A DNA stretch of 64,000 nucleotides from Lichenicola cladoniae (GTDB taxonomy: Bacteria > Pseudomonadota > Alphaproteobacteria > Acetobacterales > Acetobacteraceae), in contig NZ_CP053708.1 of assembly GCF_013201075.1 (NCBI RefSeq), positions 1,367,501 through 1,431,500 of the forward strand, in the 5' to 3' direction. Below are positions 4,764 through 25,188 of this stretch, in pieces. How positions within the stretch are numbered: the first letter of the stretch is position 1; the number at the start of each line of letters is the position of its first letter. Position numbers and translations under genes: made by a program. The notes below the pieces were generated by a model that saw nothing but the letters and a program-made list of their open reading frames with translations, was not told where the DNA came from and did not search any database.

Positions 4764-6947
4764 TTAGAAGCGCTGGGTGATGCCGCCCAGGATGGTCCGG
4801 CGTAGGCCGTATTGCGGGGCTCCGACGCCGATGCCGCTGCCGTCGCGAATGAGGTAGCGGCGATCGAGCAGGTTCAGGATATCGAGCCGTATCTCGGTGC
4901 CGCGCAACACCAGCCGCTTGAAGGTCTGCACGAACGAGGTGTTGATCACGTAATAGCCGGGCAGGGCGCGTCCGTTCGGAACATCGCCGTCGGCACGCAG
5001 GCCGGAGCCGACGACGAGATCGACCGATGCCCGCAGCGGATGATTCGAGCCGTGCAGGAACGAATAGGCCGCACCGGCCGATCCGGTCCAGCGCTGGTCA
5101 TGGTCGAGATGCACCCAGCGGTTCTTGATGTAGGAAACATCGGCCTCGCTGAAGTTGAACTGCGACGAGGTGAGATCCTTGCCGATCGCCCGCGACCAGG
5201 CGACGCTGCCATACAGCGAGAGCGGCCCCTTGTCGTACGATGCGGTCGCCTCGTATCCGTGCACTTCCCCACGTGCGTAGTTGAAGGCGGACAGGATGAT
5301 CGGCGCGCCGAACTGGCCCTCGTCGATCAGGTTGCTCGCCTGCTTGTAGTAGGCATCCACGCCGACATGCAGCCCCGGCAGCACGATCTGGTCGATGCCG
5401 GCATCGTAGTAGTTGTCGCGCTCCGCCTGCACCTTGTCGTTCAGGGTCTGCGCCGGTGCCGCACTGGTGCCGGCGAACGCGCCCAGATTGTTGCTGGTCA
5501 GCTGCTCGAACGGCGGCGGCGTGAAATAGCGCGCGTAACCCACATGCAGCGTCGTCGTATCGGTCGGGCGCCAGACGACGTTCACGCGCGGACCGAACGC
5601 GTGGTCGGCGATGTATTCGCTGACGCCGTCGAAGCGCAGTCCGGTGTTGATCGTCACGCGCGGCAGGATCCGCCACTCGTCCTGAACATACAGGCCATAG
5701 ACCATTCCCGTCTTGCCCTGGCCGCTCTGCAGCGAGATCGGCTGGTCGCCAAACATCGGATTGCCGGACCCGTCCTCGCCGACTTGTGGCGACACCACGG
5801 AATTCGTGCTGGACACGTTGCGCTCGACGAACAGCTGGAACCCGGCGCGCAACGTATGCTGGTTGTTGATGCGCCAGCTCGCATCGGTCTGGGTTCCCGT
5901 CGACATCACCGATCGCGCGGCGGTCAGCGCGATGCCGTCGTACAGCAGGTCACCGACCGGATCGGGCGTGTAGTACAGGCTGCTGTAGCGGGTGAAGACC
6001 GAGCTCTGCAGGTCGAGCGCGCCGATCTGCTTCTGCAGGGACAGGATCGCGAAATCGGTGATCTCGCGCTGGTGCTCGGTCAGGTCCCGGCTGGCATAGT
6101 CGGTGGTTCCATTCACCGATAATCCGAGCCCGGGGACCTGCGCCGGATTGTTGGGAATCTGGTATTGCGCATTGGATACGCCGGCAATCAGGCTGACACG
6201 GGTGTTCGCGTCGGCGGTGAAACTCAGCTTGCCGATGCCGTGATACTGGTTGCTCAGATCGTGGATGGCATTGAATGCACCGGTCGAGTTCTCGATGCCG
6301 ATGCGGTTGTGCAGGACGTCCGCAGTCACGAACCAGTCCCAGCGCCCCGACGATCCGCCATAGGCGGCCGATGGCTGGAAATAGTCGCGGGCGCCGCCAT
6401 AGACCGAGATCTCACCGCCGGGATCGGTGATCCCGCTCTTGGTGTCGATGTTGATGACCGCCGCCTGCAGGAAGCCGTACTGGGCGGGGAGCGCGCCGGT
6501 GGTCAGCGACAGGTCGTGCGCGAACCGCGTCTGCAGGCTCTGCCCGAACACCGCCAGACCCTCCGGAAGCTGCACCCCGTCGAGGCGGAACTGCACCTCG
6601 TTATGGTCGCCGCGCACATGGATCTGCCCGTAGCTGTCCTGCGCCACGCCGGGCGCCTGGAGCAGTACCTGGTTGAGCGGGGTATTGTCGCCCTGGGGGA
6701 TCGTCGCCAGCGCGCCGCGACCGAAGCGATAGACTTCCGCGCCGAGGCTCGGCTGCAGCCCGGACCGGGCACGATCGAGCCGGACAGTGACCGTCTCGAC
6801 CGGATCGTTGATCCCCGGCGTTGGCGCTTGTGTCTTGAAATCCCGGCTCAGCGGCGGAACATCCGGCTGCGCCAGCGCCTGTTGAACGGCGCCGCCGGCC
6901 ACGCAGAGGCATGCCAGGATACTGCTGGAAAATAGTCGGCAGTGCAT
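4764..6947 (-). CDS. TonB-dependent outer-membrane receptor 1
   Basis: A 727-residue TonB-dependent transporter. A signal peptide of about 26 residues ends at ALA-QPD; a plug domain follows (TPLNQVLLQAPGV, IHVRGDHNEVQFRLDGV, ALPAQYGFLQAAVINIDT), then a 22-strand-type barrel ending in the outer-membrane C-terminal Phe (GGITQRF). A recognisable TonB box is not obvious; VETVTV near residue 50 is the best candidate. Substrate is unknown. GAGG lies just upstream of the ATG, and a Zur-like palindrome (6959-6983) overlaps the region where a promoter would lie, suggesting zinc or another metal as cargo (inference). Confidence 0.9.
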   Translation of the reverse strand: MHCRLFSSSILACLCVAGGAVQQALAQPDVPPLSRDFKTQAPTPGINDPVETVTVRLDRARSGLQPSLGAEVYRFGRGALATIPQGDNTPLNQVLLQAPGVAQDSYGQIHVRGDHNEVQFRLDGVQLPEGLAVFGQSLQTRFAHDLSLTTGALPAQYGFLQAAVINIDTKSGITDPGGEISVYGGARDYFQPSAAYGGSSGRWDWFVTADVLHNRIGIENSTGAFNAIHDLSNQYHGIGKLSFTADANTRVSLIAGVSNAQYQIPNNPAQVPGLGLSVNGTTDYASRDLTEHQREITDFAILSLQKQIGALDLQSSVFTRYSSLYYTPDPVGDLLYDGIALTAARSVMSTGTQTDASWRINNQHTLRAGFQLFVERNVSSTNSVVSPQVGEDGSGNPMFGDQPISLQSGQGKTGMVYGLYVQDEWRILPRVTINTGLRFDGVSEYIADHAFGPRVNVVWRPTDTTTLHVGYARYFTPPPFEQLTSNNLGAFAGTSAAPAQTLNDKVQAERDNYYDAGIDQIVLPGLHVGVDAYYKQASNLIDEGQFGAPIILSAFNYARGEVHGYEATASYDKGPLSLYGSVAWSRAIGKDLTSSQFNFSEADVSYIKNRWVHLDHDQRWTGSAGAAYSFLHGSNHPLRASVDLVVGSGLRADGDVPNGRALPGYYVINTSFVQTFKRLVLRGTEIRLDILNLLDRRYLIRDGSGIGVGAPQYGLRRTILGGITQRF

Positions 6948-6958
6948 CTGGGCCTCAT

Positions 6959-6983
6959 ACGCAATGTTATACTGTTGCGTTTG
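6959..6983. promoter_or_regulatory. Palindrome resembling a Zur box upstream of TonB receptor 1
   Basis: ACGCAA (6959-6964), a 10-nt spacer and TTGCGT (6975-6980) form a perfect 6-10-6 inverted repeat 11 nt before the receptor ATG. Read on the plus strand, the left half AATGTTATA matches the classical Zur half-site exactly; the right half is degenerate (5 of 9). On the minus strand TATAAC at the centre could serve as a -10. Zur identity is inference. Confidence 0.4.
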
Positions 6984-7080
6984 GTAGCTGGCCGGCTCTG
7001 GTCTGTCCAGTCGTGAAACGCTCGGCGTGAACCCGGAACGGTGCGATGCTAGCCATCCTTGCCACTTAGGGTCCTGTCCT

Positions 7081-7470
7081 ATGCCGTTGCTCCGTTTCGA
7101 CCTGCTCGAAGGCCGTACCGATCTCGAACTCCAGACCCTGCTGGACGCCGCGCACGAGGCCGTGGTGGAAGCCTTCGCGGTTCCGGCCCGCGACCGCTAC
7201 CAGATCGTCACCGAGCACAAGCCTGGCCGCATGATCCTCCAGGATACCGGTCTCGGTTTCGAGCGCAGTGCGGATGCGATCGTCGTGCAGATGTTCACCA
7301 GCCCGCGCACGCCGGAGATGAAGCAGGATTTCTATCGGCTGCTGACCCGGAAGCTCGGCGAACGCTGCGGGGTCGCGCCCGAGGACGTCATGGTGTCCTG
7401 CATGACGAACGCCAGGGAGGATTGGAGTTTCGGCTTCGGCCGGGCGCAGTTCATGACCGGGGAGCTCTAG
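7081..7470 (+). CDS. Tautomerase-superfamily protein
   Basis: A 129-residue protein beginning MPLLRFDLLEGRTDLELQ. Removal of the initiator Met would expose Pro1, the catalytic base of the tautomerase superfamily. The length and the RYQIVTEHKPGRMIL segment fit the longer Tautomerase_2 group rather than the 62-residue 4-oxalocrotonate tautomerases. The start at 7081 is chosen because it gives the N-terminal Pro; an in-frame upstream codon at 7027 does not. The physiological substrate is unknown. It is convergent with the acetyltransferase gene, 9 nt away. Confidence 0.85.
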   Translation: MPLLRFDLLEGRTDLELQTLLDAAHEAVVEAFAVPARDRYQIVTEHKPGRMILQDTGLGFERSADAIVVQMFTSPRTPEMKQDFYRLLTRKLGERCGVAPEDVMVSCMTNAREDWSFGFGRAQFMTGEL

Positions 7471-7479
7471 GACACCCCT

Positions 7480-8073
7480 TCAGCGCGGGCGCTCCAGCTC
7501 CCAAGCGAGGTGCGACCGCACTGCCGGCCACTCCGCGGCGATGATGCTGTAGGAGCAACTGTCGCGCAGGGTGCCGTCCCTGGTCCGCACGTTGTGGCGC
7601 AGCACCCCGTCGAGTTTCGCGCCGAGCCGCTCGATCGCGCGCCGGCTGCGATAATTCATGAAATGCGTGCGCAGCTCTACGGCAACACAGTCCAGCGTCT
7701 CGAAGGCGTGCGTCAGCATCAGGCGCTTCGCCTCGGTGTTGAGCGCGGTGCGCTGCACCCGTTCGGCGTACCAGGTCCACCCGATCTCCATCCGGCGCAC
7801 GATCGGATCGATGCGGCCGAAGCTGGTCATGCCGACGATCGCTCCGGTATCGGTTTCGGTCACTGTGAACGGCAGCATGATGCCCTGGTCGCGCCAGGCC
7901 AGCCGGGTCGCGATGTCGTCCGCCATCTCGTCCGGGTTGGGCACGCTGGTGAACCAGAGCCGCCACAGCATGCCATCCCGGGCCGCCTCGACCAGCCCGT
8001 CATGGTGCTCGTGCTCGAGCGGCAGCAGCGTCACATGCCGCCCGGCCAGGCGCACTGGTGTTGTCCAGACCAT
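7480..8073 (-). CDS. GNAT family N-acetyltransferase (RimJ/RimL-like)
   Basis: A 197-residue GNAT protein. VRLAGRHVTLLPLEHEHHDGL opens the fold, and IVGMTSFGRIDPIVRRMEIGWTWY and AKRLMLTHAFETLDCVAVELRTHFMNYRSRRAIERLGAKLDGVLR correspond to the beta4/beta5 splay and the C-terminal half of RimL-type acetyltransferases. The canonical Q/RxxGxG/A pyrophosphate loop is weak here (RVQRTALNTEAK). Substrate unknown. Confidence 0.85.
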   Translation of the reverse strand: MVWTTPVRLAGRHVTLLPLEHEHHDGLVEAARDGMLWRLWFTSVPNPDEMADDIATRLAWRDQGIMLPFTVTETDTGAIVGMTSFGRIDPIVRRMEIGWTWYAERVQRTALNTEAKRLMLTHAFETLDCVAVELRTHFMNYRSRRAIERLGAKLDGVLRHNVRTRDGTLRDSCSYSIIAAEWPAVRSHLAWELERPR

Positions 8074-15242: not shown

Positions 15243-16244
15243 ATGAGCAGGCACCTCAAGGTCGCGGTCCAGATGGACCCGATCCACGCCATCGACATCA
15301 ACGGCGACTCCACCTTCGCGCTGATGCTCGAAGCCCAGGCACGCGGCCACTCCCTGTGGGTGTACGAGGTACGCAACATGAGCCTGCGCGAGGGCAAATC
15401 CGGCCTAGGGGCGAAGCGCGAGGAGCGGCTCACTGCGCGGGCGAGGCCGGTGACGGTGCAGCGCGTGCAGGGCGCGCACGCCAGCATCGGCGAGGAGCAG
15501 GTGCTCGACCTGGCGACGATGGACGTGGTGCTGATGCGCCAGGACCCGCCGTTCGACATGGCCTACATCACCGCCACCCACATGCTGGAGCACATCCACG
15601 CTGCCGAGGGCGAGACCGGCCACCGTACGCTGGTGGTGAACGACCCGCGCTCGGTCCGCGATGCGCCGGAGAAGCTGCTGGTCACCCATTTCCCGGACCT
15701 GATGCCCCCGACGCTGATCACCTGGGACCTGCAGGCGATCCGCGACTTCCGGCTCGAGCATCGCGACATCATCGTCAAGCCGCTGTTCGGCAATGGCGGC
15801 GCCGGGGTGTTCCGTATCCGCGAGGACGACCAGAACCTGGCATCATTGCTGGAGATGTTCTTCTCGCACTCACGCGAGCCGCTGATGATCCAGCGCTACG
15901 AGAAAGCAGTCCGGCAGGGCGACAAGCGCATCATCCTGGCCGACGGCGAGCCGATCGGCGCGATCAACCGGGTACCGGCCGAGGGCGAGGCGCGCTCCAA
16001 TATGCATGTCGGCGGCAAGGCCGGGCGCTCGAGCCTGACGCCGCGCGAGCACGAGATCTGCCGGCGGATCGGACCGATGCTGCGCGAGCGCGGGCTGATT
16101 TTCGTGGGTATCGACGTGATCGGCGACTGGCTGACCGAGATCAACGTGACCTCGCCGACCGGGCTGCAGGAGATCGACAGGTTCGACGGGATCAACACGG
16201 CCGGCCTGCTCTGGGACCGGATCGAGGCGCGGCTAGCGGCCTGA
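15243..16244 (+). CDS. gshB: Glutathione synthase
   Basis: A 333-residue ATP-grasp enzyme that joins gamma-glutamylcysteine and glycine in the second step of glutathione synthesis. Recognisable elements are [27 protein letters not shown] at the N-terminus, [26 protein letters not shown], the ATP-grasp segment [16 protein letters not shown], and the metal/ATP site [21 protein letters not shown]. Length is normal for the family. It follows the S9 peptidase on the same strand after 31 nt. No gshA lies in the window. Confidence 0.96.
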
Positions 16245-16252
16245 GCGGCGTC

Positions 16253-16411
16253 TCAGTCGTACATCCGGCGTCGCTGCCGGGGCGGTTTCTCTTCGATGCT
16301 CTTCGGGCCGTACTTGTTGTCGACCCACTGGTGCAGCTCTCGCTTGAAATACCAGATGACGACGCCGGTCCACGCGAGCGCGGTGAGGACGACCAGGCTC
16401 CAGATCAGCAT
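16253..16411 (-). CDS. Small single-pass membrane protein
   Basis: A 52-residue protein with one N-terminal hydrophobic helix (MLIWSLVVLTALAWTGVVIW) and a basic, soluble tail rich in K/R ending RRRMYD. The start at 16411 is set by a very strong Shine-Dalgarno sequence, GAGGAGG, about 6 nt upstream; longer in-frame versions lack one. It is convergent with gshB (8 nt apart) and divergent from pmtA. I do not recognise a family; function unknown. Confidence 0.7.
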   Translation of the reverse strand: MLIWSLVVLTALAWTGVVIWYFKRELHQWVDNKYGPKSIEEKPPRQRRRMYD

Positions 16412-16553
16412 CCCTGCCTCCTCACGATGTAACACTACGCCCAAGAATAGACGGAACGGGCACAAACCGGCAAACGCCTCGCGGGTTGGTGTGATGGCAT
16501 CATCTTCGGCTACACTTGATGGTGCAGCCCTTGCAGGGCAGAGATACGGCGTC

Positions 16554-17357
16554 ATGAGTCAAGTCCTCGATGAGAAGCAGACCAAGACAGCCCGCCGCAT
16601 GCGGTTCGGGCGCACGAATCTGGAGTTGGCCGTGAGCGCGCCCCCTGATCTCTACGAGCCGTCGCAGACGGGTGCGGGTGCGGGTGCCGTGGCGGTGCCG
16701 CTCGCGGCCGCCGCCCCGGTTCCGAAGTCGGCACTGGATGCCGACGCGGTCAAGGCAGCCTACCAGCGCTGGGCGGGGGTCTATGACGGCGTGTTCGGCG
16801 GCGTCTCCGCGTTCGGCCGTCGCCGTGCGGTAGCCTCCGTGAACCTGCTGCCGGGCATCAAGGTGCTGGAGGTCGGCGTCGGCACCGGCCTCGCTCTGCC
16901 GCATTATTCCCCCGACAAGCGCATCACCGGCATCGACCTGTCCGCGGCGATGCTGGACCGCGCGCGCCGTCGCGTCGCGCTGGCCAACATGCCGCATGTC
17001 GAGGCGCTGCTGGAGATGGACGCCGAGGAGACGGTGTTTGCCGACGATACGTTCGATATTGCCGTCGCGATGTTCGTGGCCTCGGTCGTCCCCAATCCGC
17101 GCCGGCTGCTGATGGAGCTGAAGCGGGTGGTCCGCCCGGGCGGTCATATCCTGTTCGTGAACCACTTCCTGGCGCGTGGCGGCGTACGCCTGGCGATCGA
17201 GCGGGGCATGGCCCGGGCATCGCATTCGCTGGGCTGGCATCCGGATTTCGCGATGGAATCGCTGCTGCCCGAGGCCGACCTCAAGATCGCGCAGATCGAG
17301 CCGGTCTCGCCGATGGGACTGTTCACGCTCGTCACATTGTCAAACGAGCCCAATTGA
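16554..17357 (+). CDS. pmtA: Phosphatidylethanolamine N-methyltransferase, Rhodobacter PmtA type
   Basis: About 267 residues, a class I SAM-dependent methyltransferase. YQRWAGVYDGVFGGVSAFGRR, the SAM motif VLEVGVGTGLALPHY, GIDLSAAMLDRARRR, EALLEMDAEE, VVRPGGHILFVNHFLA and LGWHPDFAMESLL follow the Rhodobacter sphaeroides PmtA pattern, which methylates PE stepwise to phosphatidylcholine at the inner membrane. The N-terminal 60 residues (Ala/Val-rich) are an extension of unknown role. An in-frame ATG at 16494 would add 20 residues. Confidence 0.8.
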   Translation: MSQVLDEKQTKTARRMRFGRTNLELAVSAPPDLYEPSQTGAGAGAVAVPLAAAAPVPKSALDADAVKAAYQRWAGVYDGVFGGVSAFGRRRAVASVNLLPGIKVLEVGVGTGLALPHYSPDKRITGIDLSAAMLDRARRRVALANMPHVEALLEMDAEETVFADDTFDIAVAMFVASVVPNPRRLLMELKRVVRPGGHILFVNHFLARGGVRLAIERGMARASHSLGWHPDFAMESLLPEADLKIAQIEPVSPMGLFTLVTLSNEPN

Positions 17358-17448: not shown

Positions 17449-18768
17449 ATGACGAGCGTGACGGGAGACACAGGCAGCATGGCGCGTTGGCTTCGCCTGA
17501 CCGACCACCGAGACGTCGGTACCGCCACGATCCTGCTCGCGGTCGTGGCGGGCCTCATGGGTGGGGTAATGTCCCTCATCCTGCGGCTGCCGGCGCTCGA
17601 CCTTGCGCCATCCTGGCGGCAGGCGGCATTGCAGCATGGTCCGATCGTGATGTTCTTCTCGGCGATCCCGGCGCTCACCGGAGGCTTCGGCAACTGGTTC
17701 GTGCCGCTGCTGATCGGCGCCCGGAACACCGCATTACCCCGCGTCGCCGCAGTGTCGTTCTGGCTGAGCGTGCTCGGCTTCCTGCTGACCCTGGCCGGAC
17801 TGCTCGATCCGCGATCGGTCCTGTTGCTGCCGGCGGCCCTGCATCTGGCCGGGACCGCGATGGTGTTGTGCTCGGCGAACCTCGTTGCGACCGTGTTCAA
17901 CATGAGGCGTCCGGGCATGACGATCGGCGCGATGCCGGTGTTCGTGTGGTCCCAGCTCCTGGCCGGGTGCCTGACGATCGTCGCGATCCCGATGCTGGTC
18001 GCCGCCCTGACCCTCGCCGGCGCCGCCCCGGCGCAACAGGCTGCGCGGTTCCTCTTCTATCCGGGCTTCTGCATCATGATCCTGCCCGGCCTCGGCATGG
18101 TCGGCCAGATCGTCTCCACCTTCTGCGCCCGGCCGCTGGTGGGCGGGCGGTCGATTGTCGTCGCGATGGCAGTGCTGGCAACGACCGGTTTTCTCGCCTG
18201 GGCGCACCAGCTGCTCGACGAGGGTGCTGCGTCGGACGACAGCCTGTTCGGGGTGGTCTCGATGCTGGCGGTGATCGTGCCGACTTTGTTCATCGCCACA
18301 TCCTGGTGCGTTACGCTCGCGCGCGCGCCATCGCCGGCGAGGGCGTTGCTGGCCCGGACGCCCGGACTGTTCTCGCTCGGGTTCGTTGCGGTCCTGGTTG
18401 TGGGAGGTCTGGCCAGCCTGATCCGTCTGGCGAATGACCCGGCGACGGCGCCGCTGCACGACGCGGTCTCTCTCGGAGCCGTGTTCGCCCTGTTCGCGGG
18501 CTTCTACTACTGGATCGGCCGGATGACGGGAAAGCCCTATCCGGAGTTGCTCGGCCGCCTGCAGTTCGGACTGCTGCTCCTGGGCGTCGCGATCATGTTC
18601 TCCGGTGCGCCCTCCGGCGGATCGATCGCGGCCGCGGGTGCCGCCCTGGCCAGCCTGTCGATCCTGGTGTTCGCGCTGGTCGTGGCGGTCACCCTGTCAC
18701 GCCGCGCCCGCGTCGCCTCGCACCAGTGGGGTCCGGGGGCGGTGACCCTCGAATGGACCATCGCATGA
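17449..18768 (+). CDS. Degenerate heme-copper oxidase subunit I (CtaD-like), catalytic centre lost
   Basis: A 439-residue, roughly 12-helix protein aligning with aa3 oxidase subunit I (TDHRDVGT, GGFGNWFVPLLIGA, SLGAVFALFAGFYYWIG), about 90 residues shorter than usual. The low-spin heme ligands are kept: His63 (LQHGPIVMFF) and His337. The usual GHPEVY motif reads FYPGFC, so a CuB His is Tyr204, the proton-channel Glu is Gly206 and the cross-linked Tyr is Cys208. The HH pair is His253-Gln254, and the heme a3 ligand is Pro335. Oxygen reduction is therefore very unlikely; a heme-binding, assembly or sensory role is inferred. The stop overlaps ctaB (ATGA). Confidence 0.85.
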   Translation: MTSVTGDTGSMARWLRLTDHRDVGTATILLAVVAGLMGGVMSLILRLPALDLAPSWRQAALQHGPIVMFFSAIPALTGGFGNWFVPLLIGARNTALPRVAAVSFWLSVLGFLLTLAGLLDPRSVLLLPAALHLAGTAMVLCSANLVATVFNMRRPGMTIGAMPVFVWSQLLAGCLTIVAIPMLVAALTLAGAAPAQQAARFLFYPGFCIMILPGLGMVGQIVSTFCARPLVGGRSIVVAMAVLATTGFLAWAHQLLDEGAASDDSLFGVVSMLAVIVPTLFIATSWCVTLARAPSPARALLARTPGLFSLGFVAVLVVGGLASLIRLANDPATAPLHDAVSLGAVFALFAGFYYWIGRMTGKPYPELLGRLQFGLLLLGVAIMFSGAPSGGSIAAAGAALASLSILVFALVVAVTLSRRARVASHQWGPGAVTLEWTIA

Positions 18769-19685
18769 GCGACGCGACCCTCAATCTTGCCGACGGCTTC
18801 GGCAGCGACACGCGCGACTGGTTCGCCCTGCTGAAGCCCAGGGTGATGACGCTGGTCGTCTTCACTGGCGCGATCGGCCTGTTCATCGCGCCGGTGCATG
18901 TCCATCCGCTGGTCGCGTTCATCGCGATCCTGTGCATCGCGATGGCCACCGGTGGCGCCGGCGCCATCAACATGTGGTACGACCGCGATATCGATGCGCT
19001 GATGAAGCGTACTGCGAACCGGCCGATCCCGACTGGACGAGTGGGCGCCGACGATGCGCTCGCCTACGGCATCGGCATGAGCGTGCTGTCGGTCGCGCTG
19101 ATGTGGCTCGCGACAAACCTCGTGGCGGCCGCGTCGCTCGCCTTCTCGATCCTGTTCTATGTCGTGATCTACACGATGTGGCTGAAGCGCTCGACGCCGC
19201 AGAACATCGTCATCGGCGGGGCCGCCGGAGCGTTTCCGCCGATCATCGGCTGGGCTGCGGCCACCGGACAGATCGGGCTGCTGCCGTTCCTGTTGTTCGC
19301 CACCGTGTTCTTCTGGACGCCGCCGCACTTCTGGTCGCTGTCGCTCTATGCCTGCGCCGATTACGGCCGGGCCGGCGTGCCGATGCTGCCGGTGGTCAAG
19401 GGCGCCCGCCATACGCGGCAGCAGATCCTGCTCTACACGGTGCTGCTGACGATCGTGTCGCTGACGCCATCGATGCTGCACCTGACCGGCATGATCTACC
19501 TGGTCTCGACGCTGCTGCTCGATCTCGGCTTCCTGGTCTGTGCTTGGCGCGTGCTGCAGGACAAGCAGACGCCGGGCGGCACTAGCCTGACCGATGACAA
19601 GCCGGCACGGCAGGCGTTCCGCTTCTCACTTCTCTACCTGATGGTCCTGTTCATGGCCGTCTGCGCGGATCGCCTGGTTGGCTGA
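18765..19685 (+). CDS. ctaB: Protoheme IX farnesyltransferase (heme O synthase)
   Basis: A 306-residue UbiA-family polytopic membrane prenyltransferase (also cyoE) that adds a farnesyl group to heme b to make heme O, the precursor of heme A. The substrate/Mg motifs NMWYDRDIDALMKRTANRP and the second Asp-bearing loop near YACADYGRAGVPMLPVVKG are intact. The start overlaps the stop of the CtaD-like gene and the end overlaps coxF, so the three are translationally coupled. It is probably needed for bo- or aa-type oxidases encoded elsewhere. Confidence 0.95.
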   Translation: MSDATLNLADGFGSDTRDWFALLKPRVMTLVVFTGAIGLFIAPVHVHPLVAFIAILCIAMATGGAGAINMWYDRDIDALMKRTANRPIPTGRVGADDALAYGIGMSVLSVALMWLATNLVAAASLAFSILFYVVIYTMWLKRSTPQNIVIGGAAGAFPPIIGWAAATGQIGLLPFLLFATVFFWTPPHFWSLSLYACADYGRAGVPMLPVVKGARHTRQQILLYTVLLTIVSLTPSMLHLTGMIYLVSTLLLDLGFLVCAWRVLQDKQTPGGTSLTDDKPARQAFRFSLLYLMVLFMAVCADRLVG

Positions 19686-19921: not shown

Positions 19922-20914
19922 TCAGCGACCCTGCTGGATCGCCGACAGCAACCAGCTGCCGCCGCGGGCCCGGACGAAGGTCCAGAGCTCGGTCACGTTC
20001 TGGCGCTCGTTCGGACTGCCGTCGACGACGCGGCCGGTCAGGTCCGTGGTCACGTCGATCAGCGAGTAGCGCATCGCCACCGTCGCGAACTCGCGTCCGC
20101 CTTCGTTCCACGCTTCCGACAGGTCGCCCTGCTCCATGCGCACGTCGCTGACCACGTTGCGCAGGTTGCGGCTGGTCAGGTCGCCGAGCTGCTCGGAGAA
20201 GTAGCTGACCATCTCCGGCGTCGCGAAGCGCGACAGGCTGTGCAGGTCCTGCATCGACCAGGCCTGCTGGACGTCGAGCAGCCCCTGTTCGAACTGCTGG
20301 TAGTCGGCCGGGGTGATCGTCAGGCTGGCGCCTGCGCCGCCTGCCTGCCCGTAGTTCGACGCCATGCCGCCATTGTTCGCGTATCCGGCCTGGTTCATCG
20401 CCATGCCGCGATTGCGGGCGAACCGGCGATACAGCCAGCGCACGATGAAGGCGATGATGGCGAGCTGGATCAGCAGCCCGATGATGCTGCCGCCGCCGAA
20501 CCCGCCGCCGTAGCCGCCACCGAACATGCCGTGGCCGAACAGCAGGCCGCCGAGCCCGAACCCGACCAGCCCGCCCATGAGCCCGCCCATCAACGGATGC
20601 GAACGGCCACCCATGCCGCCGATCATGCCCCCCGACTGGCCGTAGCCCGGCTGGCCGAAGTTGGAGCGGGGGGTCATGCTGCGGTCGAACGAGGAGGCGC
20701 CGCCTGGATTGCTGCGTGTCATCGGCGGCGCCATGTAGGTGCGGCTGCCCCGGCTTCCCATCGACATGCCGCCGCCCGGACGCGCCTCCGCCGCGACCGG
20801 GACCAGCATCGTGGCCAGCACGGGGGCGATCGCGGGCGTGGCCGCGAGCAGCAACGCGAGGGACGCCGCCGCGGCGCGAGGGCCGGACCGTTGCGGCAGC
20901 TTGGTGGTTGTCAT
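19922..20914 (-). CDS. Tim44-like domain protein
   Basis: A 330-residue protein: N-terminal signal/anchor (AAAASLALLLAATPAIAPVLA), a Gly/Met/Ser-rich low-complexity region with many GG/GM repeats, one transmembrane helix (SIIGLLIQLAIIAFIVRWLY, about residue 150), then a C-terminal Tim44-like domain (DYQQFEQGLLDVQQAWSMQD to the end). Bacterial Tim44-like proteins are membrane-associated, of poorly known function, and have been linked to inner-membrane transport. AGGAC just before the ATG supports the start. It faces the ctaB operon convergently. Confidence 0.8.
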   Translation of the reverse strand: MTTTKLPQRSGPRAAAASLALLLAATPAIAPVLATMLVPVAAEARPGGGMSMGSRGSRTYMAPPMTRSNPGGASSFDRSMTPRSNFGQPGYGQSGGMIGGMGGRSHPLMGGLMGGLVGFGLGGLLFGHGMFGGGYGGGFGGGSIIGLLIQLAIIAFIVRWLYRRFARNRGMAMNQAGYANNGGMASNYGQAGGAGASLTITPADYQQFEQGLLDVQQAWSMQDLHSLSRFATPEMVSYFSEQLGDLTSRNLRNVVSDVRMEQGDLSEAWNEGGREFATVAMRYSLIDVTTDLTGRVVDGSPNERQNVTELWTFVRARGGSWLLSAIQQGR

Positions 20915-20955: not shown

Positions 20956-22308
20956 TCAGGCGCCGGCAATCATCATATGGTCAATGCGGATCGTCGGTGC
21001 ATCGGTCCCGCGTCGGAACGAAAGATCGTTGGCCGGCTGCAGGCGCCCGAACATCTCGATCAGGTTGCCGGCCACCGTCAGTTCGGCGATCGGCTCGGCC
21101 AGGGCGCCGTTGCGGATCATGAACCCGGCCGCGCCGCGGCTGTAGTCACCGGTCAGCCCGTTGATCGCCGATCCCATCATCTCGGTGACATAGATGCCCT
21201 CCACGATGTCGGCCATCAGCTGGCTCGGACTGACGATGCCTCCGGTCAGGCACAGGTTGCTGGTGGAGGGCGACGGCGGTGACGACGTGCCGCGCGAGGC
21301 GTGGCCGGTGCTTGCCAGCCCGAGCTGCCGTGCACTGCGCCCGTCCAGCACCCAGCTATGGAGGTCGCCGTCCTCGACCAGGACGAGCGGTGCGGTGGGC
21401 ACGCCCTCGCCGTCGAACGGCTTGGACCGCAGGCCGCGCCGGCGGGTCGGGTCGTCGACGACGCCGATGCCGGACGGCAGGATGCGCGTGCCCATGCGCT
21501 CCTTCAGGAACGAGGTGCCGCGTGCGACCGACGCCCCGTTGATGGCACCGGCGAGATGGCCCAGCAGGCTGTTGGAGACCCGCGGATCATAGACCACCGG
21601 CATGTGGCCGGTGCGCGGCTTGACCGGGTTCAGCCGCGCCACCGCCTGTTCGCCGGCATGGCGGCCGATCCGGGCGGGGTCGTCGAGGTCGGCGAGATGC
21701 ACCACCGAATGATAGTCGTAGTCCCGCTGCATCGCGGTTCCGCTGCCGGCCAGCACGCTCGCGGACACCGAGTGGCTGGTGCGGGCATAGCGTCCCGAGA
21801 AGCCGGCCGACGTCACCAGCGCGATCTCGCTCCGGCCGAAACCGGCGGAGCCGCCCTGGCTGTTGGTCACGCCATCGATGGCGAGCGCAGCCGCCTCGGC
21901 CTGTCGTGCGCGCTCCGTCAGCGCCTCTATGCCCGGCTCGGCGGTATCGGCGAGATCAAGCCCGTCGCCATCGATGAAGTCCGGCGCCGACCGCTCGCAG
22001 AGACCGGCAAACCGGTCTTCCGGAACCACGCGCGCCATCGCCAGCGCCTGCTCGACCAGGCGCCCGAAGCCGTTCGGCTCGGCGCTGGTGGCGGAGACCA
22101 TGGCGCTTCTCGTACCGGCGAACACGCGCAGCCCGACATCGTTATGCTCGGAGCGCTCCAGCTCCTCCTTGCGGCCCTGGCGGACCTGCACGCCGACCGA
22201 CGTGCCGGACACCAGGATCGCGTCGGCGGCATCGGCGCCGGCGCGGCGCGCGTGTGCCACCAGCTCCTGCAGCAGCGCCACTGGATCGGTCATGGCGTGC
22301 GAGCTCAT
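20956..22308 (-). CDS. pmbA: Metallopeptidase TldD/PmbA family, PmbA subunit
   Basis: A 450-residue PmbA (TldE)-type protein. VQVRQGRKEELERSEHNDVGLRVF near the N-terminus, the middle SNSLLGHLAGAINGASVARGTSFLKERMG and the C-terminal EGIYVTEMMGSAINGLTGDYSRGAAGFMIRNG are family hallmarks. TldD/TldE forms a heterodimeric protease acting on unfolded peptides; PmbA lacks the zinc-ligand HExxxH of TldD, and none is seen here. Its start overlaps the M16 protease stop by 4 nt, so the two are co-translated. tldD is not in the window. Confidence 0.93.
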   Translation of the reverse strand: MSSHAMTDPVALLQELVAHARRAGADAADAILVSGTSVGVQVRQGRKEELERSEHNDVGLRVFAGTRSAMVSATSAEPNGFGRLVEQALAMARVVPEDRFAGLCERSAPDFIDGDGLDLADTAEPGIEALTERARQAEAAALAIDGVTNSQGGSAGFGRSEIALVTSAGFSGRYARTSHSVSASVLAGSGTAMQRDYDYHSVVHLADLDDPARIGRHAGEQAVARLNPVKPRTGHMPVVYDPRVSNSLLGHLAGAINGASVARGTSFLKERMGTRILPSGIGVVDDPTRRRGLRSKPFDGEGVPTAPLVLVEDGDLHSWVLDGRSARQLGLASTGHASRGTSSPPSPSTSNLCLTGGIVSPSQLMADIVEGIYVTEMMGSAINGLTGDYSRGAAGFMIRNGALAEPIAELTVAGNLIEMFGRLQPANDLSFRRGTDAPTIRIDHMMIAGA

Positions 22309-23600
22309 GCCGCCAGCCTGTCCGCGACCTCGCCGAGGCGCGGGATGTTGGAGAGCGGCCCGAGTGCGGTCAGCGTCGGGCTGCCGCGGAACACGCGGGC
22401 GGCGGCGCGGCGCACATCGTCCAGGGTGACAGCGTTGATCTTCGCGACCGTCTCCTGGGTCGGGATGATGCGGCCGAACACCTGCAGCTGGCGGGCAAGC
22501 TGCTCGCAGCGGCTGCCGGTGCTTTCCAGCGACATCAGCAGGCTCGACTTGAGCTGCGCGCGGGCGCGGTCGAGCTCGTCCTGGCGGATGACGTCGGAGC
22601 CGGTGGTGAGCTGCACCTTGCGCAGTTCCTCGAGCGTGACCGGGACCAGTTCCTTGGCCTCGTCCTCGCCGGTGCCGGCATAGATGCCGAACAGCCCGCC
22701 ATCCAGGAACGGCGCGTTGAACGAGTAGATCGAATAGACCAGCCCGCGCTTCTCGCGGATCTCCTGGAACAGGCGCGACGACATGCCGCCGCCGAGCAGG
22801 GTCGAGAGCAGCAGCACGCCGTAATAGTCACGGTCGCCGTAGCCCACGGACGGGAAGCCGAGCACGACATGGACCTGGTCGAGCTCCTTCTCCTTTCGGA
22901 ACTCGCCGCCCTGGTAGCGCCCGGCCTCGGGCTTCTCCAGCGCCGCACTCGGCAGGTCGGCAAAATGCTGCTTGGCGAGGTCGACCACCTGCTCGTGATG
23001 CAGGTTGCCGGCGGCGGCGATCACCACGTTGCCGGTGGTGTAGTGGGCCCGCATGTAGTCGGTCAGGGTGTCGCGCTTCATGCCCCGGATCAGGCTGTCG
23101 GTGCCCAGTGTCGGCCGGCCCATCGGCTGGCTCGGAAACGCGGTCTCCTGGAAATGGTCGAAGATGATGTCGTCCGGCGTGTCGTTGGCCTGGCCGATCT
23201 CCTGCAGGATCACGCCCCGCTCGCGCTCCAGCTCCTCGGCTGCGAAGCTGCTGTGGGTCAGGATGTCGCCGATGATGTCCGCGCCGAGGGCAAGATCCTC
23301 CTTCAGCAGCTTGACGTAGTAGGCGGTCTGCTCGCGCGCCGTGTAGGCGTTGATGTGGCCGCCGACATTCTCGACCTCCTCGGCGATGAGCGCTGCCGAG
23401 CGGCGCTCGGTCCCCTTGAACGCCATGTGCTCGAGGAAATGCGAGACGCCGTTCTCGCTGGCCAGCTCGTTGCGCGTGCCGCTCGCCACGTAGGCGCCGA
23501 ACGAGACCGTCTCGACCCGGTCCATGCGCTCGGTGACGATGGTCAGGCCGTTGGACAGGCGTGTCGTGTTGATCGTGTCGGATTTTGTGCTGTCGGTCAT
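22305..23600 (-). CDS. M16 family zinc metallopeptidase (processing-peptidase-like)
   Basis: A 431-residue M16B protein, similar to mitochondrial processing peptidase beta. The inverted zinc motif HFLEHMAFKGTERRS provides His-x-x-Glu-His, and the distal Glu ligand is in the ELERERGVILQEI region. The second M16 domain includes the GGGMSSRLFQEIREKRGLVYSI signature. The ATG at 23600 gives the expected N-terminus (TTRLSNGLTIVTERM); an in-frame codon at 23654 adds 18 unrelated residues. It is downstream of thrC and overlaps pmbA by ATGA, giving a thrC-M16-pmbA order common in alphaproteobacteria. Confidence 0.93.
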   Translation of the reverse strand: MTDSTKSDTINTTRLSNGLTIVTERMDRVETVSFGAYVASGTRNELASENGVSHFLEHMAFKGTERRSAALIAEEVENVGGHINAYTAREQTAYYVKLLKEDLALGADIIGDILTHSSFAAEELERERGVILQEIGQANDTPDDIIFDHFQETAFPSQPMGRPTLGTDSLIRGMKRDTLTDYMRAHYTTGNVVIAAAGNLHHEQVVDLAKQHFADLPSAALEKPEAGRYQGGEFRKEKELDQVHVVLGFPSVGYGDRDYYGVLLLSTLLGGGMSSRLFQEIREKRGLVYSIYSFNAPFLDGGLFGIYAGTGEDEAKELVPVTLEELRKVQLTTGSDVIRQDELDRARAQLKSSLLMSLESTGSRCEQLARQLQVFGRIIPTQETVAKINAVTLDDVRRAAARVFRGSPTLTALGPLSNIPRLGEVADRLAA

Positions 23601-23684: not shown

Positions 23685-25085
23685 CTAGGCGGCGTTCTTC
23701 AGCACCGCGGCCCGGACCGCGTCCTCGACGGCATCGAGCCGGTTCGGCACCACGCGAAAACGCTCGTCCCGCTGATACAGATCCGCCAGGTGTTTCGGCA
23801 GGTCCGGCGCGAAGCCGACGGCGGTCCGCATCGCGTCCGGGAACTTGGCCGGATGCGCGGTGGCCATCGCCACGGTGGGCGTGCCCGGGATCCGGCCGGC
23901 GCGGGCGGCGGCGATGCCGATCGCGGTGTGGGGATCGGCCAGGTAGCCGGCCTCGCCATAGAGCCGGCGGATCTCGTCCGTGGTGTGCGCGTCGTCCAGG
24001 GTCAGGCCATGGAACAGGCTGGTGGCATCGCGCCAGACCGCATCCGGCACCGCCATGCGGCCCTCGCGCCGGAACCCGGTCATGATTGCGGCGCAGGCAT
24101 TCGCATCCCGCCCGAGCAGCTCGAACAGCAGCCGCTCGAAGTTCGAGCTGACCTGGATATCCATGCTCGGCGACAGGCTGGGCGTCACGCCGCGCACGCT
24201 CATGTCGTTGGCGCCGAGGAAGCGCGCCAGGATGTCGTTGTGGTTGGAGCCGACATTGAGCCGGGTGATCGGCAGCCCCATGCGCCGCGCGCCCCAGGCC
24301 GCCAGCACATTGCCGAAATTGCCGGTCGGCACCGCGAACGCGATCTCGCGGTCGGGTGCGCCCAGGGCCAGTGCGGCCGCGACATAATACGGGATTTGCG
24401 CCGCCACCCGGGCCCAGTTGATCGAGTTGACCGCGCTCAGCTGCATGTCCTCGCGGAACGGCGCATCGGCGAACATCGCCTTCACCAGATCCTGGCAATC
24501 GTCGAAGGTACCCTCGACGGCGAGATTGGAGATGTTGGCCGCGCGGACCGTGGTCATCTGCCTGCGCTGGACTTCGCTGGTGCGGCCCAGCGGATGCAGG
24601 ATCACCACATCCAGCCGCTCGCGATCGCGGCAGGCCTCGATCGCCGCCGAACCGGTGTCGCCCGAGGTGGCGCCGACGATGGTGACGCGCCGGTCCTGCT
24701 GCCGCAGCACATGATCGAACAGCCGCCCGAGCAGCTGCATCGCCAAATCCTTGAAGGCGAGCGTGGGGCCGTGGAACAGCTCCTGCGCGAACAGCTCGTG
24801 GTCGAGCTGCACCAGCGGCACGATCGCCGGGTGGCCGAACCCGGCATACGCCTCGTGGCACATCGAGCGCAGGGTCTCGAAGTCGATCGCACCCTCGGCG
24901 AACGGAGCGATCACCCGTGCCGCCAGCTCCGGATAGGGCAGGCCGCGCAGCGTTCGCCAGTCGGCGGCGGACAGTTCGGGCCATTGTTCCGGCATATACA
25001 GGCCGCCATCCTCGGCGAGACCTGCAAGCAGGACGCCGGAGAAATCGCGGATCGGGGCCTGGCCCCTGGTCGAGACGTAACGCAT
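23685..25085 (-). CDS. thrC: Threonine synthase
   Basis: A 466-residue PLP-dependent enzyme making threonine from O-phosphohomoserine. MRYVSTRGQAPIRDFSGVLLAGLAEDGGLYMPEQWP is the standard N-terminus; the PLP lysine is in GPTLAFKDLAMQLLGR; VGATSGDTGSAA binds the cofactor phosphate; VPTGNFGNVLAAW and SNFERLLFELLG are conserved. The start at 25085 is chosen by alignment with the family; upstream in-frame codons at 25097 and 25136 extend it. It is followed by the M16 protease after 84 nt. Confidence 0.95.
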   Translation of the reverse strand: MRYVSTRGQAPIRDFSGVLLAGLAEDGGLYMPEQWPELSAADWRTLRGLPYPELAARVIAPFAEGAIDFETLRSMCHEAYAGFGHPAIVPLVQLDHELFAQELFHGPTLAFKDLAMQLLGRLFDHVLRQQDRRVTIVGATSGDTGSAAIEACRDRERLDVVILHPLGRTSEVQRRQMTTVRAANISNLAVEGTFDDCQDLVKAMFADAPFREDMQLSAVNSINWARVAAQIPYYVAAALALGAPDREIAFAVPTGNFGNVLAAWGARRMGLPITRLNVGSNHNDILARFLGANDMSVRGVTPSLSPSMDIQVSSNFERLLFELLGRDANACAAIMTGFRREGRMAVPDAVWRDATSLFHGLTLDDAHTTDEIRRLYGEAGYLADPHTAIGIAAARAGRIPGTPTVAMATAHPAKFPDAMRTAVGFAPDLPKHLADLYQRDERFRVVPNRLDAVEDAVRAAVLKNAA

Positions 25086-25188
25086 GCGGCCAAGCATAGT
25101 CAGGCTGGCGCGCCTCGCGAAGGGGGCCAGCCGCATATGGGTCCCCCGGGGCCAGCCGGCTTCATGATCCAGCTCCGATGACGGTGGT

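Follow-up and report, generated by a model that had tools for sequence, protein, structure and literature searches.

A Catalytically Dead Homolog of Cytochrome c Oxidase Subunit I, Retained before ctaB in Acetobacteraceae, Probably Binds a Single Bis-Histidine Heme

An open reading frame (ORF) at 17449..18768 on the forward strand of a 64,000-nucleotide stretch of the Lichenicola cladoniae genome (NCBI RefSeq assembly GCF_013201075.1, contig NZ_CP053708.1, positions 1,367,501 to 1,431,500; hereafter the window, meaning the whole stretch analyzed) encodes a catalytically dead homolog of cytochrome c oxidase subunit I (CtaD/COX1), which we label DCtaD. It no longer has the oxygen-reducing center but keeps the two histidines of the low-spin heme, and most likely a single six-coordinate heme, of type B or O, is bound to it. 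Sequence comparisons within the same family, the Acetobacteraceae, show a single origin of DCtaD, intact reading frames, purifying selection, conservation of the low-spin ligands, loss of what else made up the catalytic site, and a constant place before ctaB, the heme O synthase gene.

Fold and Active-Site Residues of DCtaD

The DCtaD frame runs from ATG to TGA, encodes 439 amino acids, and contains no internal stop codons. Residues 23–385 match the Pfam COX1 family (E 2.1e-51), and the nearest PDB sequences are solved cytochrome c oxidase subunits I, while the score against the NCBIfam CtaD equivalog TIGR02891 is 207.5 bits, below the cut-off of 670.75 bits. The predicted structure, with a predicted local distance difference test score (pLDDT) of 79.9 and a predicted template modeling score (pTM) of 0.84, has 12 long helices, and its top Foldseek matches are cytochrome c oxidase subunits I, with template modeling scores (TM-scores) on the query of 0.80–0.86 in the leading rows. 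Pfam, the model, and Foldseek agree on a COX1 fold with 12 transmembrane (TM) helices, and DCtaD is accordingly predicted to have the fold of CtaD. Canonical A-type CtaD and mitochondrial COX1 share with DCtaD this fold, the helix order, and the low-spin ligand pair, and their C-terminal LEW motif is present in about half of the DCtaD proteins. By contrast, DCtaD is roughly 90–100 residues shorter and lacks the CuB/heme a3 site and the RRY loop, and the window protein lacks the channel residues as well.

Residues were matched by aligning DCtaD to solved subunits I and to canonical CtaD (codon coordinates below are on the forward strand). The GHPEVY motif has become F203-Y204-P205-G206-F207-C208, in which the first CuB His is replaced by Tyr204 (18058..18060), Glu by Gly, and Tyr by Cys; the HH pair is H253-Q254 (18205..18210); and HFH is P335-L336-H337, with Pro335 (18451..18453) in place of the heme a3 His. 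GAPD reads GARN, with the D-channel Asp changed to Asn at position 93, and the K-channel Lys position is occupied by I282. The protein is thus devoid of the heme a3 ligand, two of the three CuB ligands, the active-site Tyr, and the D- and K-channel residues. His63 in TM II (17635..17637) and His337 in TM X (18457..18459) align with the low-spin heme ligands. A sequence-only reading of the window had listed the same replacements, apart from that of the K-channel Lys, and the same two retained histidines, and the alignment bears it out.

Conservation, Selection, and Descent

Searches covered 299, 298, and 32 genomes of the family and six named Komagataeibacter records, with genome G032 added as one row read at its ctaB locus. 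The family is only partly sampled in this way, so that counts of members are lower bounds, and a profile miss for a gene is not proof of its absence. Full-length DCtaD was found in at least 20 genera, with one truncated copy in another genus. The loop and motif alignment comprised 46 full sequences, to which a 47th was added, the divergent row of genus g33 that the first profile had missed at E 1e-5; the truncated sequence of G009, in which His63 is present and the second site lies off the contig, was excluded from the 47.

Between genera, these 47 proteins are on average 27.1% identical, with a minimum of 14.5%, and only four of 362 columns are invariant, namely His63, Trp167 (17947..17949), Trp251 (18199..18201), and His337. 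By a simple combinatorial calculation, the chance that two of four invariant columns would be the low-spin His pair is 9e-5. A further 20 genomes were located via the neighboring methyltransferase gene and not via the histidines; 15 of them carry DCtaD, all from genera already sampled (and excluded from the counts of CtaB presence below), and both Trp and both His are again found in 15/15, which brings the His pair to 62/62 full-length relatives (47 + 15). The remaining five of the 20 are the genomes in which CtaB is missing (below). Both histidines are also kept in Komagataeibacter L052, L054–L057, and L059 and in L026, L029, L030, and L032, which lie outside the 47.

At the first, second, and third CuB columns, His is present in 0, 22, and 1 of the 47 relatives, respectively, and at the heme a3 column in two. 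The active-site Tyr (0/47) and the K-channel Lys (0/47) are gone throughout, and Glu and the D-channel Asp remain in 20/47 and 16/47; Lys, Glu, and Asp are all missing from the window protein. Displaced CuB or heme a3 ligands were considered and rejected, since no His column other than His63 and His337 is invariant among the 47.

Summed over its branches, the tree of the 47 sequences amounts to 40.7 changes per site, and the median column has 16.5 changes; His63 and His337 have none, although their codons vary silently (CAT/CAC 27/20 and 37/10, respectively). TM II and TM X, which carry these residues, evolve more slowly than any other helix, with 9.1 and 11.4 mean steps (P 9e-8 in comparison with the remaining helices), and helices VIII, XII, and VII change most. 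The ratio of nonsynonymous to synonymous substitution rates (dN/dS) is below 1 in 62/62 defined values (64 pairs), ranging from 0.06 to 0.38 outside the window's genus and from 0.51 to 0.62 within it; selection is thus most relaxed in this genus, in which CtaB likewise evolves faster. In a quick tree method all 47 form one clade with a Shimodaira–Hasegawa-like approximate likelihood ratio test (SH-aLRT) support of 100, which argues for a single origin of DCtaD and led us to reject several independent origins; the inner order of the tree is unsure owing to long branches and uneven letter composition. One deep-branching DCtaD (L159 in G071, genus g71, 6453–8033) has a 526-codon frame, longer than the rest, and possibly represents an early stage of the loss.

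The sequence-only reading had denied that the gene is a decaying pseudogene and had proposed an alignment, a tree, and dN/dS across the Acetobacteraceae as a check, naming displaced ligands or a variant not conserved in related genomes as what would speak against it. No such ligands were found, the variant is conserved across genera, and a decaying pseudogene is rejected on intact frames, dN/dS below 1, and ligand conservation. The observation is correct and reaches further than that reading knew.

Association with CtaB and Heme Type

DCtaD lies directly between a class I methyltransferase gene and ctaB, on the same strand, in 45/45 loci in which all three genes were read (the window, plus 25 and 19 loci read in two rounds). 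In the window, ctaB (18765..19685, forward strand) is assigned by TIGR01473 at 325.5 bits against a cut-off of 210.3, scored on a longer frame from 18726, and its ATG at 18765 overlaps the DCtaD stop codon as ATGA; the sequence-only reading had described the frame as coupled to ctaB. All 25 relatives scanned have a candidate ctaB start no more than 11 bases from the DCtaD stop, and in 16 of them it is at −4. No subunit II gene (CtaC/CoxB) is found between the methyltransferase gene and ctaB, either in the window or in the relatives' loci.

CtaB (TIGR01473 over its cut-off) is present in 52 of the 57 genomes tested, including 46/46 carriers of DCtaD, and in all five genomes without it (G210, G066, G070, G029, and G116) the same methyltransferase gene is not followed by DCtaD. 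G210 and G070 have no COX1-family matches, and the other three have a single match each of about 140 bits, in frames of 785–833 codons, where the same search scores oxidase genes at 450–500 bits. In length these frames resemble quinol nitric oxide reductases; the two pieces scanned against NCBIfam were not named by it.

Heme A synthase (CtaA, PF02628) has no match in 16 of the 46 carriers tested, representing 12 genera; heme A is therefore not needed, and we rejected it as the general cofactor of DCtaD. CtaG and SURF1 have no match in 48/48 carriers, compared with SURF1 in 10/10 and CtaG in 8/10 comparison genomes (seven with all CtaD ligands seen, two judged by frame length, and G012 a fragment). 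CoxB-type subunit II exceeds its cut-off in 10/10 comparison genomes and does not do so in 36/48 carriers. Two non-carriers, G001 and G077, also have no match to CtaG or SURF1. This distribution of CtaA, CtaB, CtaG, SURF1, and CoxB suggests that DCtaD tracks the heme O pathway rather than cytochrome c oxidase. Of the possibilities raised in the sequence-only reading, a six-coordinate heme protein or an assembly partner for another oxidase remains the best one, whereas heme A does not stand.

Other oxidase genes were seen in these genomes. The window's genome (G000) carries several additional heme-copper subunit I genes, and in it the two parts of one COX1-family match lie at opposite ends of the 441-kb contig C2 (439953–441107 and 1–186; L006 and L008); C2 probably represents a circular replicon that was opened within an oxidase gene. 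In G077 (L163, 4581–9626), ctaB has no DCtaD before it, and a few kb downstream lie a subunit II-like frame and a subunit I frame of 598 codons whose ligands are intact, apparently a different type of oxidase cluster. A cbb3-like subunit I (CcoN 148 bits, below cut-off) followed by a cytochrome c-type frame is present in G169 of genus g31 (L224).

Neighboring Genes

The methyltransferase gene (16296..17357) is preceded by the glutathione synthetase gene gshB (15243..16244), both on the forward strand, and ctaB is followed on the reverse strand by genes for a Tim44-domain protein (19922..20914), a PmbA/TldD protein (20956..22308), an M16 peptidase (22305..23591), and an ORF at 23685..25136. The last comes from the ORF list and is presumably threonine synthase-like (thrC-like), a name based on the look of the sequence and not taken from a library search; the others were assigned with Pfam. 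The methyltransferase gene holds the same order in relatives, its start being uncertain; the relatives' matches mostly start near base 16716. The gshB, Tim44, PmbA, M16, and thrC-like flanks are mostly retained. A scan for promoters and terminators gave nothing useful. The alphaproteobacterial cta operon often adjoins genes such as these, and the DCtaD locus may accordingly be a stripped cta operon. The evolutionary rates of the methyltransferase and CtaB covary, with a residual r of 0.63, the highest of 15 neighbor pairs.

Possible Roles of DCtaD

Taken together, we propose that DCtaD descends from a cytochrome c oxidase subunit I whose oxygen chemistry disappeared a single time, in a forebear of the acetic acid bacteria and of bacteria closely related to them. 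It would have been retained as a membrane protein in which helices II and X hold a single six-coordinate (bis-His) heme. This heme would be B or O, given the 12 carrier genera without a heme A synthase match. DCtaD might then partner CtaB by permanently mimicking an oxidase subunit in mid-assembly. Newly made heme O would be accepted or stabilized by it, which would allow the resident CtaB to serve a bo3/ba3 quinol oxidase. Known delivery machinery, SURF1 and the CtaA-CtaB complex, is like DCtaD in this proposed handling of heme toward an oxidase, although DCtaD has no family match to it in Pfam. The heme step is well supported, and delivery from CtaB is the likeliest of the roles that we considered. 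The explanation as a whole is put forward tentatively, as its probability falls a little short of the balance. We are still more reserved about a new class of membrane hemoproteins, namely a pseudo-subunit I that accepts or escorts heme O and connects the old CtaB with the replacing quinol oxidase; this we regard as possible and not as probable. As to what DCtaD does with its heme, we are less sure, and rank the acceptance or stabilization of heme O in partnership with CtaB ahead of a CtaB scaffold, and the scaffold ahead of a separate redox role.

Several observations weigh against a heme O-handling partner of CtaB. The loop carrying the Arg pair (RRY), which we take to be the heme-propionate anchors near the entry of electrons from subunit II, is deleted in DCtaD, and TM XI and TM XII are not slow (16.9 and 18.4 mean steps); we place both helices on the heme a side, and the rate of XII is at odds with the simple picture. 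Twelve of the 48 carriers, the window's genome included, have CoxB above its cut-off elsewhere. In the window's genome, the gene for this CoxB-type subunit II adjoins one for a CtaD-like subunit I whose ligands are intact (contig C1, 4575624–4578007; L003), apparently a second, whole cytochrome c oxidase, and DCtaD may therefore serve the other oxidase there. In G001 (genus g2), ctaB directly follows the methyltransferase gene in an otherwise conserved locus (L160, 2640–4194) that seems to be a natural deletion of DCtaD. This genome has CtaB and two full-length COX1-family genes, and DCtaD is therefore not strictly required. Further, the rates of DCtaD and CtaB covary with a residual r of 0.17, no excess over neighbors (PmbA 0.46), and the adjacency of the two genes could be a relic of the old cta operon. 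In 2014, Matsutani and colleagues reportedly described an incomplete ctaBD-ctaA cluster in which both CtaB and CtaA work, and the function of this CtaB was reportedly shown in Escherichia coli, without DCtaD.

Alternatively, DCtaD might only stabilize CtaB, as a membrane scaffold in which heme serves just for folding; this amounts to the suggestion in PMC10715153 with a heme added. Adjacency to ctaB and loss together with CtaB fit a scaffold, as does that published suggestion. However, a pure scaffold need not keep exactly two heme ligands amid near-total drift elsewhere, and G001 retains CtaB without DCtaD; we consider a scaffold rather unlikely. A single-heme cytochrome with no part in heme O delivery, one that shuttles electrons between quinol and either an oxidant or a periplasmic partner, would suit the fact that bis-His hemes are typical electron carriers, and the heme of DCtaD is expected near the periplasmic side, as with heme a. 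Yet two Trp are the sole invariant residues apart from the His pair, which leaves no conserved site for a second cofactor; the locus holds no new partner gene; and loss together with CtaB would not be expected of such a role, which appears improbable.

A sensor of heme or oxygen that regulates heme O synthesis by acting on CtaB would draw on the same support as heme O handling, and a bis-His heme could report heme load. The Pfam scan found no signaling domain in DCtaD, and the data do not separate sensing from delivery; we give a sensor slightly less credit than an independent cytochrome. Least credible to us is a vestige whose frame stays open only through translational coupling to ctaB via the stop-start overlap. 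The closeness of the candidate ctaB start to the DCtaD stop in all relatives scanned, the fast evolution of the protein (27% mean between-genus identity), and the dN/dS values in the window's genus would suit a vestige, but keeping a frame open neither preserves two His at the amino-acid level over 40.7 changes per site nor makes TM II and TM X the slowest helices.

Comparison with Published Accounts

The sequence-only reading knew of no description of such a gene, but one has been published. According to PMC10715153, which cites Matsutani et al. (2014), a non-functional COX1-like gene lies beside ctaB in Acetobacter, and its protein is termed deranged, described as lacking all metal-binding residues, and suggested to stabilize CtaB. 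By locus number, A. pasteurianus ctaD (APT_01775) adjoins ctaB (APT_01774) in PMC5158111. The CtaB and CtaA of A. pasteurianus are stated to be functional in PMC6915089 (citing Matsutani et al., 2014), and PMC4596401, citing the same work, states that A. pasteurianus contains cytochrome c oxidase, which is at odds with the other accounts. Bombella intestini is without cytochrome c oxidase genes according to PMC5112900. CtaA-CtaB complexes and the hand-over of heme are reviewed in PMC9145763, the available passages of which do not include acetic acid bacteria.

The published protein is almost surely the product of the same gene as DCtaD, as both are COX1-like, not oxidases, and clustered with ctaB in acetic acid bacteria. 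However, the published absence of metal-binding residues is contradicted by the invariant His pair, which is present in 62/62 relatives, including six genomes of genus g31 (G030, G117, G169, G271, G294, and G242). The assignment of g31 to Acetobacter is ours and comes from G169, whose citrate synthase is almost the same as that in PDB 2h12, an A. aceti protein. In the one literature collection searched, the text available held no statement that the low-spin ligands are conserved in the COX1-like protein. Degenerate B-family oxidases of alphaproteobacteria are likewise heme-copper subunits that, according to PMC6431628, have probably lost oxygen reduction, but they belong to a different family (B). 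What is new here is the absolute bis-His conservation in the sample, its breadth, the independence of DCtaD from heme A, and the loss of DCtaD together with CtaB.

Implications

Our results correct a printed statement on a gene of industrially used bacteria. They also indicate that the core subunit of an oxidase can survive as a probable one-heme protein, with the low-spin heme site separated from oxygen chemistry. DCtaD may offer a natural mimic of stalled assembly for the passage of heme O or heme A from CtaB or CtaA to the apo-oxidase; its hosts are culturable, and the apparent natural deletion in G001 allows comparison. If DCtaD does act as a heme O escort, it would connect the heme O synthase that once served cytochrome c oxidase with the quinol oxidase that has taken over from this oxidase in acetic acid bacteria.
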